From positions 1 through 36,838 of the IMG/VR virus record IMGVR_UViG_3300034198_003104: 36,838 nt of DNA; one strand, 5' to 3'. A program made the position numbers and the translations under genes. Shown here piece by piece: positions 5,197 through 9,889 of the stretch. The DNA is from a virus. How positions within the stretch are numbered: the first letter of the stretch is position 1; the number at the start of each line of letters is the position of its first letter. The notes under the pieces were generated by a model that did no database searches, had not been told where the DNA came from, and saw nothing but the letters and a program-made list of their open reading frames with translations.

Positions 5197-5486
5197 GATT
5201 TGCTCTCCGTCAAAACTTCGTGGAGATGACGACGCTGTTCTGTTGTTAATTCTGGCTCTGAAATACCGTCTGATTGCTGATACTTTTCAATCATTTCCTT
5301 TTTAAGCACGTTTTCCCACCACCACTTACGCGCCTTCAATTCCTTGCCCTTCAGTTTGCCGCTTGCAGCGTTAAAATCAAGCCAACATCCGTAGCAAATT
5401 TCTTTAAATTGCTCAGTCCGTTCTCGCTCAAAAATTATCTTGCATGAACGACATTCAACCGCCTCTGGATCAACTATCTTTTTCAT
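5193..5486 (-). CDS. Small zinc-binding protein of the replication block
   Basis: A 97-residue protein with C13-x2-C16 (VECRSC) and C31-x2-C34 (CYGC), a likely four-Cys zinc site, followed by a charged helical region rich in Lys, Trp and Glu. It overlaps the primase-like gene upstream by four bases and the helicase downstream by four bases. The context suggests a loader or primase partner, but the family is not recognised. Confidence 0.7.
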   Translation of the reverse strand: MKKIVDPEAVECRSCKIIFERERTEQFKEICYGCWLDFNAASGKLKGKELKARKWWWENVLKKEMIEKYQQSDGISEPELTTEQRRHLHEVLTESKS

Positions 5487-5899
5487 TGCCCCCCCACCAT
5501 CTCAAGTGCCTGTTGAAATTCGCCAGCAATCGCCAGCAGCTTGTTTTTCTCCGCTTCCGCCAAAACCTTGCCTTTTGCCATGTCAACCGCCGCCAAAGCG
5601 ACTATTGTTGCCGAAAAGCTCATTGCACGTAACACATCTGCCGCAGGAATACGTCCACGACGCGTCAGGTGAGCCGTAGGCGCATCCGGCATGAGGTCTG
5701 ATACATCCATGCCCACAGAAGCCATAATTTCGCCAATTCCGCAGCCTGCGAAGCAATGCACCAGCAGCCGGTCGGAGTCCGATTCCGTAATGGTCATCGA
5801 CGGGGTTTTGTCGTCATGTGCCGGACAGCAAGCCAGCCAGCGACCACGACCGGTTTGCTTGACCTTGGAAAGATGGGATAGAAACAGGTCTGTTTTCAT
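5483..5899 (-). CDS. Stand-alone primase zinc-binding domain (CHC2-like)
   Basis: The first 60 residues contain CCPAHDDKTPS (C25, H28) and HCFAGC (C49, C53), the CHC2 zinc-finger signature of DnaG-type primases. A full primase would continue into a TOPRIM catalytic domain, but this protein ends at 138 residues with an Ala-rich helical tail and no E...DxD motif. It may act with a host primase or direct template recognition for another enzyme. It overlaps both neighbours by four bases, inside the replication block. The domain call is solid; how priming is completed is not known from this window. Confidence 0.8.
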   Translation of the reverse strand: MKTDLFLSHLSKVKQTGRGRWLACCPAHDDKTPSMTITESDSDRLLVHCFAGCGIGEIMASVGMDVSDLMPDAPTAHLTRRGRIPAADVLRAMSFSATIVALAAVDMAKGKVLAEAEKNKLLAIAGEFQQALEMVGGQ

Positions 5900-6660: not shown

Positions 6661-6881
6661 GATTCGAGCGCCGCAAGTTCTGCCCGTGCCTTGACTATAC
6701 GCGCTTCAGCACGGCGGATAGCTTCCTTTAACTTCGTTTTCCGGTGCGTCAGAACGTGCGCTGGTTTGTTTGATCGCCGCCATTTATACATGTATTCGCG
6801 CATGTATTCTTGACGATCTCGAGATTTATCCGCTGGCTTGTTGACGCAGATTAGCTGCGTTGGCAGGTCGGATAAGTTCAT
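6654..6881 (-). CDS. Small basic helical protein, 75 residues
   Basis: ATG at 6881 overlaps the upstream stop by ATGA. The protein is Arg/Lys-rich with a DRQEYMREYMYKWRRSNK stretch and a long C-terminal helix rich in Ala, Arg and Glu that could form a coiled coil. DNA or RNA binding is plausible from its charge. It sits between the accessory module and the replication block, so its affiliation is unclear. Confidence 0.65.
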   Translation of the reverse strand: MNLSDLPTQLICVNKPADKSRDRQEYMREYMYKWRRSNKPAHVLTHRKTKLKEAIRRAEARIVKARAELAALESC

Positions 6882-7162
6882 ATCAAATTTAATTGCTTGT
6901 TAGTTAATTCTTTGTATTCAGGCCTTGCTTCAATTTCTATTTTTTTTAATGCCATATAATATTTTGAAGTTGCCGGAGTAAATCCCAAAGATTTTAATGA
7001 ATGATCGTTTTTCAAAATTGCATTACAAATAGCCTGATATGAAGGCGCTAAATTCAATTGCATCAATCGAAGTGGAACCTCATCTGGTATGTCTTCTGGG
7101 TATCCTTGCTGCTGCCATGAACTAATGTATTTGCGTATTTTCTTTTCCATTTTCCTAGCCAT
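6878..7162 (-). CDS. Stand-alone DUF3440-type C-terminal domain protein
   Basis: A protein of up to 94 residues with IRKYISSWQQQGYPEDIPDE, then YQAICNAILKNDHSLKSLGF (ILKNDH at 49-54). The large PAPS-reductase-like protein of the same operon ends in a matching segment (ILKNDHTCKYMGL at 412 onward), and IbrA-type proteins carry such a C-terminus. So this is a detached copy of that domain. The start may be ATG 7162 or ATG 7150 (AGGA nearby). It is the last gene of the accessory module. It could bind the same partner as the large protein and compete with it or complete it; that is inference. Confidence 0.7.
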   Translation of the reverse strand: MARKMEKKIRKYISSWQQQGYPEDIPDEVPLRLMQLNLAPSYQAICNAILKNDHSLKSLGFTPATSKYYMALKKIEIEARPEYKELTNKQLNLI

Positions 7163-7488
7163 TTGAACGCGGTGGCATTTGCGATGTTTTGCTCTTGCTC
7201 GGTTAATAATTTGAAACCACCCCTAAAACACGACGGTATGCCGGTATCAATACACATTGAAGCCTGACCAAGCCACGCGATTCTGTTGATGCTTTCGTTC
7301 AATAAAAACTGTTCGCATGAGACAGGCCATTCTTCAATTACTCTGCACAATGCGGCTTCAAATCTTTTTGAATCTCTAAGAAAAATTGCGTAATGTTCAA
7401 GAGGATTTTCTACGCTTGTTTGCGTATCGTAGAAACCAGCTTTAAAACATTCCCATTTATGCCACGGATGATAGACGCGGCGTATCAA
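7063..7488 (-). CDS. Unrecognised module protein starting near a YHPWHKWE motif
   Basis: The open frame extends to 7539, but a TTG at 7488 with a perfect GGGAGG ribosome-binding site 6 bases upstream is the best start, giving 141 residues. It overlaps the ParB-like gene by 32 bases and the downstream gene by about 100 bases. The N-terminus has VYHPWHKWECFKAGFYD, rich in His, Trp and Cys, and there are further Cys residues at CRV, SCEQF, MCID and SCFRG. A metal or redox site is possible. Its fixed place between ParB-like and DUF3440-like genes suggests it is part of the same machinery. I do not recognise a named family. Confidence 0.7.
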   Translation of the reverse strand: MIRRVYHPWHKWECFKAGFYDTQTSVENPLEHYAIFLRDSKRFEAALCRVIEEWPVSCEQFLLNESINRIAWLGQASMCIDTGIPSCFRGGFKLLTEQEQNIANATAFKWLGKWKRKYANTLVHGSSKDTQKTYQMRFHFD

Positions 7489-8002
7489 ATTCCGCCTCCC
7501 AACTATCAGAAAAATCACGATTAGCAAATAATGCAGCAACGCCAGTAATTTGCTTCAAGCGCAAAAGCTCATCCACGCTCATGCCGATATGCTGACAAAT
7601 CCAACGATCACCCTTGCCCATCTCGACAAGCTCCGCAACAATAGTGCTCATCAATTCGATGTTGTGCGTGCCCCTAGCGCGATTGTGGCGAATCGTAGAC
7701 GCCATCCTGTCGCCTAACTCCTTGTTGATAACAACAATAGGCAGGCAGTTGTTCTCGCGCTCTCTAATCCGGGCGCTATTCTTCATCGTCAAATAGCGGT
7801 GGAATCCGTCGACAACGATATAAATATCGTTTTCAGCATCAAAATACGTAACGATAGGTTGCGTGTATCCGTCTTCCCAAATAGACGTTTCGAGCAATGC
7901 CATTTCAGGTGGGGCTACGGCGTTCGGGTTGTAATCGTTTGACTTGACGCGATCAATCGGAACGCACAATACGTTGTAAACCGGCGATTTAAACTCACTC
8001 AT
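7457..8002 (-). CDS. ParB-fold protein, IbrB-like
   Basis: A 181-residue protein of the ParB/sulfiredoxin-fold superfamily. The N-terminal domain has VPIDRVKSNDYNPN, then VDGFHRY (64-70), the equivalent of the ParB GxRR/GxHR box, and RHNRARGTH (105-113), the motif characteristic of IbrB-type proteins. The C-terminal part has a HTH-like segment (WICQHIGMSVDELLRLKQIT). IbrB partners with IbrA-type PAPS-reductase-like proteins, which are present here two genes upstream. It overlaps the cupin gene by 8 bases and the next gene by 32. It may be a nucleotide-dependent switch or nuclease; the biochemical role is unknown. Confidence 0.85.
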   Translation of the reverse strand: MSEFKSPVYNVLCVPIDRVKSNDYNPNAVAPPEMALLETSIWEDGYTQPIVTYFDAENDIYIVVDGFHRYLTMKNSARIRERENNCLPIVVINKELGDRMASTIRHNRARGTHNIELMSTIVAELVEMGKGDRWICQHIGMSVDELLRLKQITGVAALFANRDFSDSWEAEFDTPRLSSVA

Positions 8003-8372
8003 AACTGCCGTCCTCTTTGTGGGTTTCGTTGCCTTTGCATGGCGGGTTAAATACCGATATCAAAATAGTCGGCTCCAATGCTTGAAATGTATGGTCATCG
8101 TGCTTGTCCAAAACATAGAGCATGTCTTCGCGGATCATTTCTTGGTCACCTGTTGCAAGGTTTGTAAGCACGCCCCATCCAGAAATGCAGTAGCAAGCCT
8201 CAAAATGTTTGGTGTAATGCCAATGCTGTGCTGGTCCAACAGGAATAATTGTTTTGTGTAGCGAAAAACCCATTCCATCAGATTCAAGCAAAGCGCGAAG
8301 GCTTACCATGCCTGAAGGAAATTTAACGTCACGGCTTGTGTTTTTCAGGTTTTCAAAATGTATGATTCTCAT
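7995..8372 (-). CDS. Ectoine-synthase (EctC)-like cupin
   Basis: A longer frame exists, but ATG at 8372 overlaps the preceding stop as ATGA and gives 125 residues, close to the usual EctC length of about 130. It matches EctC nearly end to end: SRDV, SDGMGFSLHKT (31-41), HYTKHFEACYCISG (52-65), MLYVLDKHDDH (84-94) and VFNPPCKGNETHKEDG. Residues E58, Y86 and H94 line up with the iron ligands of EctC, and R26, T41, Y53, H56 and E116 with substrate contacts, while the usual Trp near 21 is Met22. No ectA or ectB is present. It may make a cyclic amino acid or act on another substrate. Confidence 0.9.
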   Translation of the reverse strand: MRIIHFENLKNTSRDVKFPSGMVSLRALLESDGMGFSLHKTIIPVGPAQHWHYTKHFEACYCISGWGVLTNLATGDQEMIREDMLYVLDKHDDHTFQALEPTILISVFNPPCKGNETHKEDGSYE

Positions 8373-9703
8373 ATGCGTTTGTATTTCTCCATGATTTGAC
8401 GCTGGCGTAATGCCTGCTCTTTTGTTGGAGCAAGCCCCATATATTTGCAAGTGTGATCGTTTTTCAAAATAGTTATTGCAAACCGCTTCCATGAAGCAAC
8501 TTCACTGTTATGGCATGTCAAAAAATCAGTGTGGTCCGGATACTTTTGAATACGAATACGCAACTTTGTTTTTTTACCGTGCGGGGTTGTTCCGTTTTCT
8601 TTAATCTTCAATTCGGAATTTTTAAGCTCTGCAAGCGTTCTGTCCGATACTGACCGTCCGACGCGGCCCCAGTATTTAATAGACTGAACAAAACGCTGCT
8701 TAAAATTATCACCTACCTCTTTAGGTAACGTAGCCAGTAAAAACTTGGTAAACGATTTCCATGTGTGTCCGGGCGGCAATTTCAAACTTTTGTAGCCAAG
8801 CTGTTTGCCGTAAGTAGCAATGAAGTTTGCCCCCTGAACCCTTGCACAAAGCCGCGCCCAAACGTGCGGATCAATCACACGATACATGCCCAGACTTGAT
8901 TTAGACTCACTCATGAACGGAGAAGCAACGCGCATTTTTCCAACCGGCACGCCAGCTTTATAAAAAATGTCGTAAAGCTCGTTGTATTCCCAATCAAATT
9001 TATAATTCGCAGTCCAAATATCCTCTGTTCTCCAATCATAAATTGGGTAACAGTTGTATACGTATTTGGTGTTTTTCTTTGTCCACATTTGACCGTGCAA
9101 AATTTCCTTGTCTACATTCATGATTGCACGAAACCTGTTGAGACTCTCGCTTGCGCGTATGCCGATCATGCAGGCTGTTCTTTTGCCTTGACCATACCAA
9201 TCGCCAAACTTGTCCCAAAATTCATCGTAATTCATGTCCTCGCGAAAAAAATCAAACGGACAATTTTTTATTGTTACGACGTATGGCCGATCAGGATATG
9301 GACGAATCCATTGTTCTTTGTCTCTTTCACCCCAGCATTGCCATTCCACAGCGTATGCACTGACGGTGCATGGCAACGTAATCGGCAGGCAGCACCAATA
9401 AACATCCAACAAATCTAGATTTTTATCTAGAATACTGTGCATAAACTTCAGCGAATATTCGTAATTCGCCTCGTTATCCAAAATCATTACGCCAATTTTT
9501 TTTGTTATGTTGTTGCGGCGCATGTAATCCAGCGTAAGGTTAAGCATTACGCCGCTGTCCTTGCCACCAGAAAATGATAGGTAAATCTTCGGAAAGTTTT
9601 TGAAAATAAAATCAATTCTTTCCATTGACGCCGAGTAGACGTTTACTTTTTTATTGTAAACTCTATTGGCTTTTTCAAAAATAGAACTATCTATTTCTTC
9701 CAT
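8369..9703 (-). CDS. PAPS-reductase/PP-loop protein with DUF3440-type C-terminus (IbrA-like)
   Basis: ATG at 9703, with a strong GGGGGG ribosome-binding site, gives 444 residues; an earlier ATG at 9727 is less likely. The PP-loop SFSGGKDSG is at 44-51, as in PAPS reductases and ATP pyrophosphatases. Further conserved parts are DWRTEDIW and MRVASPF (middle) and ILKNDHTCKYMGL (from 412), the DUF3440-type end. This is the IbrA family, which adenylates or reduces a still unidentified substrate. It overlaps the regulator gene by 17 bases and is coupled by ATGA to the EctC-like gene. Together with the ParB-like gene it makes an IbrA/IbrB pair. Confidence 0.9.
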   Translation of the reverse strand: MEEIDSSIFEKANRVYNKKVNVYSASMERIDFIFKNFPKIYLSFSGGKDSGVMLNLTLDYMRRNNITKKIGVMILDNEANYEYSLKFMHSILDKNLDLLDVYWCCLPITLPCTVSAYAVEWQCWGERDKEQWIRPYPDRPYVVTIKNCPFDFFREDMNYDEFWDKFGDWYGQGKRTACMIGIRASESLNRFRAIMNVDKEILHGQMWTKKNTKYVYNCYPIYDWRTEDIWTANYKFDWEYNELYDIFYKAGVPVGKMRVASPFMSESKSSLGMYRVIDPHVWARLCARVQGANFIATYGKQLGYKSLKLPPGHTWKSFTKFLLATLPKEVGDNFKQRFVQSIKYWGRVGRSVSDRTLAELKNSELKIKENGTTPHGKKTKLRIRIQKYPDHTDFLTCHNSEVASWKRFAITILKNDHTCKYMGLAPTKEQALRQRQIMEKYKRI

Positions 9704-9854
9704 TTGCCCCCCTTTCCATTTTGGCAATCTGCCCGACCCTCTGCTTGCTAATGCCCATGATCTTAGCGACCTCTTTTGGGGTTTTCTTTGCCAGCAAAGC
9801 GATTACTTTAGCCCTGCGGCGCTCGTATTGTTTCAACAGTGTTTTATAGTCCAT
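9687..9854 (-). CDS. Small helix-turn-helix regulator
   Basis: ATG at 9854 gives 55 residues; the open frame reaches TTG 9872. The C-terminal half reads KKTPKEVAKIMGISKQRVGQ, a clear helix-turn-helix (VAKIMGIS-turn-RVGQIA). A basic helix precedes it (QYERRRAKV). It is the first leftward gene, divergent from the rightward operon, and overlaps the PAPS-reductase-like gene by 17 bases. It probably represses or balances both divergent promoters and may autoregulate the accessory module. The size is at the lower end for a repressor, so a Cro-like role is possible. Confidence 0.75.
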   Translation of the reverse strand: MDYKTLLKQYERRRAKVIALLAKKTPKEVAKIMGISKQRVGQIAKMERGANGRNR

Positions 9855-9859
9855 GCCCG

Positions 9860-9889
9860 ATTGTGTCCTCAAAATAAACCCCTTGTCAA
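9860..9889 (-). promoter_or_regulatory. Candidate leftward promoter of the regulator/accessory operon
   Basis: A perfect TTGACA (9889-9884) is followed after 18 bases by CACAAT (9865-9860). The expected transcription start falls at about 9853-9854, on the ATG of the regulator, so the mRNA could be leaderless as lambda cI from PRM is. The -10 is weak (4 of 6). A second, weaker -35 (TTTACA) lies further upstream. Confidence 0.4.

Follow-up and report, generated by a model that had tools for sequence, protein, structure and literature searches.

The IbrA/IbrB pair is widespread, and its biochemistry is given in no searchable paper. It was named in Escherichia coli, where co-activation of the prophage eib genes has been reported as its functional property; it is represented in strain K-12 by YbdN/YbdM and occurs as a bare pair in elements of Streptococcus, Bacteroides and Fusobacterium. 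The same kinds of fold are found in DNA phosphorothioation, whose DndC and DndB are PP-loop and ParB-like proteins, and DpdB is likewise ParB-like (PMC10853773, PMC12839542). In the ectoine synthase of Paenibacillus lautus (PlEctC), residue Trp-21 touches the substrate, moves in catalysis and is needed for activity, and it was stated to be conserved in 437 operon-encoded and 145 orphan EctC proteins (PMC6344544). Here, a module joining relatives of IbrA, IbrB and EctC to two further proteins is described from the IMG/VR record IMGVR_UViG_3300034198_003104. The whole stretch analysed, of 36,838 nt (the window), is a virus contig of 36.8 kb that encodes portal, scaffold, capsid and head-closure proteins. 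The five-gene set was confirmed to be real, widespread and not described in searchable papers.

A sequence-only reading of the window had proposed five overlapping genes directly behind a regulator, and all five open reading frames were found on the minus strand within 9703–6878. They encode an IbrA-like PP-loop protein, resembling phosphoadenosine phosphosulfate (PAPS) reductase and carrying a DUF3440 domain (444 amino acids, 8369–9703, minus strand), an EctC-like cupin (125 amino acids, 7995–8372, minus), an IbrB-like protein of the ParB/sulfiredoxin fold with the motifs DGFHR and RMASTIRHNRARG (181 amino acids, 7457–8002, minus), P4, an all-helical protein of an undescribed family with the motif YHPWHKWE (141 amino acids, 7063–7488, minus), and P5, a stand-alone copy of the C-terminal (DUF3440) tail of IbrA (94 amino acids, 6878–7162, minus). 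The regulator is a helix-turn-helix (HTH) protein of 56–61 amino acids that overlaps IbrA by 17 nt. Further overlaps are of 4 nt (ATGA) between IbrA and EctC, 8 nt between EctC and IbrB, 32 nt between IbrB and P4 and 100 nt between P4 and P5. Strong ribosome sites had been noted; those of IbrA (AAAGGGGGG) and P4 (GGGAGG) are indeed strong, that of IbrB (GAGG) is fair, and those of EctC and P5 are weaker.

In the scan of IMG/VR, the EctC-like gene had 104 relatives and P4 had 408; 80 of each were kept, a few contigs being in both sets, and layouts were scored by profile searches over the kept loci. The order IbrA, EctC, IbrB, P4, P5 was present in 39 loci, the window's own included, and the same order with EctC and IbrB fused in 24 loci, while about 15 loci showed permuted orders. 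Layouts free of EctC comprised IbrB, P4, IbrA (44 loci) and an IbrB-P4 fusion followed by IbrA (24 loci); the fusion of P4 to IbrB, seen in some relatives, was counted in about 26 loci. The complete set was found in 38 of the 39 viral EctC loci having at least 3.5 kb on each side, and both IbrA and IbrB accompanied P4 in all 42 flanked loci without EctC. The five genes form a conserved unit, of which the three-gene core IbrB-P4-IbrA is the basis. Viral EctC proteins share a mean identity of 54% and fall into 51 clusters at 70%, and thus the module is not confined to one phage lineage. Neighbourhood recurrence, on which the sequence-only reading had made its proposal depend, was therefore found in dozens of diverse phages, and joint action of the proteins is most strongly indicated by their staying linked through fusions and changes of order.

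Cultured carriers with the five genes in the same order are Pseudoalteromonas phage XCL1123 and Mycobacterium phages Gaia and Nebkiss. The modules of the latter two have EctC and IbrB fused and an inserted GIY-YIG-like gene, placed between the fusion and P4 (Gaia gp105, L003 6500–6874; Nebkiss gp105, L252 3890–4264). In XCL1123 the annotated start of P4 (L002 6470–6934) is too late, since homology begins about 110 nt upstream and overlaps the ParB-like gene, and the P5 gene (about 6891–7088) is missing from the annotation. When genome contigs were scanned for EctC, nearly all matches were real ectoine operons, and these were used as cellular controls. The entire module is present on two of the contigs, L167 and L168, whose assigned genomes are of Saprospiraceae and Planctomycetota; both contigs are probably viral or of prophage origin. 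The faecal 'Bacteriophage sp.' record MT835761 (L006/H5) was left out as a phage carrier, because an aminotransferase adjoins its bona fide-looking ectC in a locus of the bacterial ectoine type. No description of an association of EctC, ParB and PAPS-reductase-like proteins was found in the searchable literature; outside it, a 2013 survey of predicted phage DNA-modification systems (10.1093/nar/gkt573) may mention the core pair.

The IbrA of the window matched PF11922 DUF3440 (5e-61), PF01507 (3e-10) and phrog_2302 (2e-107), with the PAPS-reductase-like domain preceding DUF3440 as expected of IbrA. It keeps SGGKDS, D76xE78, the GIR segment and the invariant C105 and C419. The cysteine motif ECGxH of PAPS reductase (CysH) is absent from it, and the identification as a true PAPS reductase, by which such genes are annotated in phage papers, was rejected. 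The structural model (predicted local distance difference test, pLDDT, 84) matches the PP-loop domains of CysD, PAPS reductase, FAD synthase, TilS and tRNA thiolases, and a weak local similarity to DndC was detected (3e-7). The IbrB of the window matched the ParB-like PHROG 2159 (2.7e-74), with Pfam ParB_N below its cut-off; the IbrB profile matched ParB (2.7e-4), Noc and, weakly, the serine kinase SbnI (E 0.03, about 45 residues). IbrB is linked to IbrA in all complete loci, with EctC standing between them in the window. ParA was not noticed among recurrent neighbours, no ParA-directed test having been made.

The IbrA and IbrB proteins that travel with EctC form clades of their own with their own conserved residues. 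Five-gene-type IbrA (88/88) and IbrB (92/92) were recovered as exact clades with support 1.0, and P4 of this type as a clade with one exception (support 0.94). Five-gene-type IbrA has many type-specific residues, several of them beside the PP-loop, and the distances of IbrA and EctC were correlated with r = 0.73, against a shuffle maximum of 0.08. Relatives of IbrB were present in 218 phage records and 642 plasmid records, the latter, chiefly from Klebsiella and Escherichia, being a large reservoir of the bare pair. Distant IbrA/IbrB pairs of actinobacterial, Bacillus and Faecalibacterium phages (L254 1–2717; L255 3269–6099; L256 2223–5513; L257 2168–4507) are accompanied by a second ParB-like gene and often by a methyltransferase, often adjoin the terminase, and are possibly another variant of the system.

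The EctC-like cupin of the window matched PF06339 Ectoine_synth (7e-38, 130.2 bits, cut-off 27) and the NCBIfam ectoine synthase NF009806 (129.7 bits, cut-off 128). It keeps the iron ligands E58, Y86 and H94 and has Met at the equivalent of Trp-21. Seventy-eight distinct viral EctC sequences were compared with the solved P. lautus enzyme (PMC6344544) in its numbering. Ser-23, Arg-25, Thr-40, Tyr-52, Glu-57 and Tyr-84 are invariant (78/78), and His-92 and Phe-106 occur in 77/78, so that the iron ligands Glu-57, Tyr-84 and His-92 are kept in 77–78 of the 78. The position of Trp-21 is taken by Phe (52), Gly (23), Met (2) or Cys (1) and by Trp in none; a Trp anywhere in the stretch 15–26 occurs in 1/79 viral versus 76/78 cellular sequences. 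Viral EctC proteins and those of the two module-bearing genome contigs constitute a clade separate from all sampled cellular EctC (support 0.999). EctA and EctB were absent from 24 carrier records, the same records giving EctC in 24/24. By its residues, the EctC relative is an iron cupin belonging to the ectoine-synthase family, its substrate site being altered. It may still eliminate water to close a ring, and it probably cyclises some molecule other than N-gamma-acetyl-diaminobutyrate. A basal group of EctC-like proteins has been described in a review (PMC5924519), and these may be prophage copies of the viral clade.

P4 has no family in Pfam or PHROGs. Its start is most likely the TTG at 7488, which is preceded by the GGGAGG site and gives 141 amino acids. 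The model (pLDDT 92) shows six or seven helices, and a fold search against the Protein Data Bank found no resembling solved structure (best E 0.21, template-modelling score 0.2). Its only good viral match was an unnamed 116-residue protein (A0A649V0K8, 24% identity), which may, judged by length, be the XCL1123 copy. No P4 was found in the 72,556 plasmid records that hold the 642 IbrB relatives, and phages seem to be its home. P5 had been read as a stand-alone DUF3440-type domain; the match is above cut-off (2e-6) but covers only the C-terminal part (profile positions 137–177 of 182), and IbrA has a complete DUF3440 of its own. P5 is devoid of the cysteine invariant at that place in IbrA. It has the IPD-E/A-P motif of core-type IbrA tails, a motif lost from the IbrA of its own module. 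Measured from the first ATG of P5 in 82 loci, the overlap of its frame with that of P4 has a median of about 90 nt.

The HTH gene that heads the unit (9687–9872, minus) starts at ATG 9854 or TTG 9872 and matches PF13384 HTH_23 (5.8e-7). Upstream of it lies a weak promoter-like site, TTGACA-18-CACAAT (9860–9889, minus), by consensus match only. Between 4.1 and 10.4 kb the only minus-strand promoter-like sites are at about 9.9 kb, upstream of the HTH gene, and at 6.4 kb, such sites being not more numerous in the module region than in shuffles. No minus-strand terminator-like site was found from 10400 to 4100. Separate transcripts for the cupin and the ParB-like gene had been named as a possible objection; the lack of terminator-like sites and the promoter-like sites before the HTH gene are consistent with one transcript. 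Downstream of the module are genes for a DUF1376 primosomal protein, a CHC2 zinc-finger primase fragment and a DnaB-like helicase, together with nin-type genes, and one early transcript running from the module into these replication genes fits the arrangement. The primase fragment (5483–5899, 138 amino acids) stands alone, adjoining the helicase and DUF1376 genes. Across loci, the genes that recur beside the module serve replication and recombination; none for export, transport or another metabolic function recurs there. The G+C content of the module genes is 33–48%, against 50% for the window, which is consistent with acquisition of the module from elsewhere.

These data are best explained, with a confidence a little above even, by an early-expressed pathway: IbrA and IbrB would use ATP to activate a substrate, on which the EctC relative would form a ring. 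As parts of that explanation, and held with the same modest confidence, the module would be horizontally mobile and co-transcribed, and its products would act in one biochemical pathway. Expression would occur together with the early replication genes. Through its PP-loop, IbrA would use ATP to activate the substrate on a carbonyl or phosphate group, and IbrB would be its nucleoside triphosphate-dependent partner, of the ParB/SbnI/sulfiredoxin type. P4 may recognise the substrate or act as a scaffold, and P5 may be an extra IbrA tail that serves in assembly or in binding the substrate. Last, the EctC relative would close a ring on the product by water elimination, the substrate being other than N-gamma-acetyl-diaminobutyrate. 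The linkage, the clades and the conserved and lost residues are observed, while the chemistry, the order of steps and the target are what we infer. The multi-enzyme reading made earlier thus holds in that recurrence, fusions and permuted orders reveal one multi-gene unit and not a chance run; its 'activates or cyclises' is made plausible by the intact PP-loop and the intact EctC-like iron site, and its delivery to a nucleic acid, protein or metabolite was not established.

With respect to the target, restriction sites and companion genes were considered. The window has 3 GTAC sites against 93.5 expected and its 6-base palindromes are halved, a strong avoidance of restriction sites. The median observed/expected ratio of 6-base palindromes was 0.63 in carriers, 0.61 in core-only loci and 0.88 in bacterial contigs. 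Since carriers avoid these palindromes, their DNA seems exposed to restriction, and a protective modification of the whole genome is unlikely; targets that are sparse or lie in RNA are compatible with the counts. The case for protection of the phage genome by modification is weakened, carriers avoiding palindromes as strongly as relatives without EctC, and for action against a defence system no evidence was obtained beyond the weak DndC resemblance of the PP-loop protein. Neither a cysteine desulfurase (PF00266), for which host IscS may substitute, nor an aminocarboxypropyl (acp; DTW) transferase was found in the 24 carriers, and the thymidylate-synthase family (PF00303) occurred in 2/24, so that the module needs little else from the phage; thymidine hypermodification was set aside on the latter count. 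As class of target, an amino-acid-like group borne by a nucleobase, in an RNA or at specific sites of DNA, is the most likely, held weakly and at somewhat less than even probability. The specific version, in which IbrA/IbrB activate or load such a group and the EctC relative cyclises it on the base, so that the ectoine reaction would have passed from a free metabolite to a nucleic acid, is improbable as it stands. On chemistry only, acp3U of tRNA would be a candidate substrate: the aminocarboxypropyl chain at its N3 amounts chemically to an N-gamma-acylated diaminobutyrate, which is the group cyclised by EctC. The host would have to supply the acp transferase.

Several points weigh against the proposed pathway. 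Locus L011, the one exception among the 39 flanked viral EctC loci, has IbrA, EctC and IbrB with P4 and P5 undetected near its EctC, and P4 was undetected across the whole L011 record in a search that had no positive control. The EctC-type and core-type sets came from two separate searches, and wider sampling may soften the exact split of clades. Searchable papers gave no activity for any IbrA/IbrB protein, the substrate and product remain putative, and the EctC-like cupin could bind a ligand without catalysing a reaction. P4 and P5 have no recognisable nucleic-acid-binding domain, and the palindrome avoidance argues against broad protective DNA modification.

The main alternative, possible but clearly less probable, is that the module makes a free small molecule, nucleotide-, osmolyte- or peptide-like, which alters host physiology or blocks a host signal. 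The substrate of EctC is a free amino-acid derivative, PP-loop relatives include the free-metabolite enzymes FAD synthase, CysD and LarE, SbnI-type ParB relatives phosphorylate free serine, and carriers bear no sign of protected DNA; however, the module sits among replication genes, no export, transport or metabolic gene accompanies it recurrently, and the loss of Trp-21 speaks for a changed, possibly larger substrate. A regulatory complex, with IbrA/IbrB co-activating gene expression as their naming in E. coli implies and the cupin as ligand sensor, is unlikely. It would agree with the annotation of the pair as prophage gene-expression co-activators, with the HTH gene preceding the module and with SbnI being, from its molecule name, both a ParB-fold kinase and a regulator, but the invariant PP-loop and iron site across dozens of diverse phages point to catalysis and none of the five proteins has a recognised Pfam DNA-binding domain. 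Slightly less probable still is hypermodification shielding the whole phage genome from restriction: the Dnd/Dpd precedents for PP-loop plus ParB-like folds, the IbrA-DndC match and the distant pairs beside DNA methyltransferases or terminases favour it, whereas the depleted palindromes of carriers, as scarce as in core-only loci, the near lack of GTAC in the window, the lack of a desulfurase and the rarity of the thymidylate-synthase family disfavour it. Ectoine made for the host by an auxiliary metabolic gene, suggested by family scores above curated cut-offs, was rejected: with EctA and EctB not found in the carriers and Trp-21 lost, the module is almost certainly not an ectoine pathway, and its EctC relative lies apart from sampled cellular EctC and is always linked to IbrA/IbrB instead.

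Because the EctC family has a solved mechanism, water elimination with ring closure, the EctC variant offers a first handle on IbrA/IbrB chemistry. The module also provides a gene context for solitary ectoine-synthase relatives that make up a virus-specific clade, and it adds P4, a protein family with more than 400 viral members and no known fold match. Because cultured phages of laboratory hosts carry it (Gaia and Nebkiss in Mycobacterium smegmatis mc2 155), its function is directly testable.

Compared with known systems, the module shares with IbrA/IbrB of E. coli the pairing of a PAPS-reductase-like DUF3440 protein with a ParB-like protein, but adds P4, P5 and the EctC relative, and its IbrA and IbrB clades are separate from those of the sampled EctC-less viral pairs. 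With DndB/DndC it has in common the combination of ParB-like and PP-loop proteins and the weak local similarity of IbrA to DndC, and differs in other conserved cysteines, in carriers devoid of desulfurase and in their avoidance of restriction sites. The ParB fold is common to IbrB and the SbnI-type serine kinases, with a match of about 45 residues only, and kinase activity of IbrB is putative. Viral EctC agrees with ectoine synthase (P. lautus 5ONM/5ONN, Sphingopyxis alaskensis 5BXX) in family profile, length, iron ligands and most substrate contacts, and is distinguished by Phe, Gly or Met in place of Trp-21, by the lack of ectA and ectB, by its own clade and by fusion to the ParB-like protein in about 24 loci.

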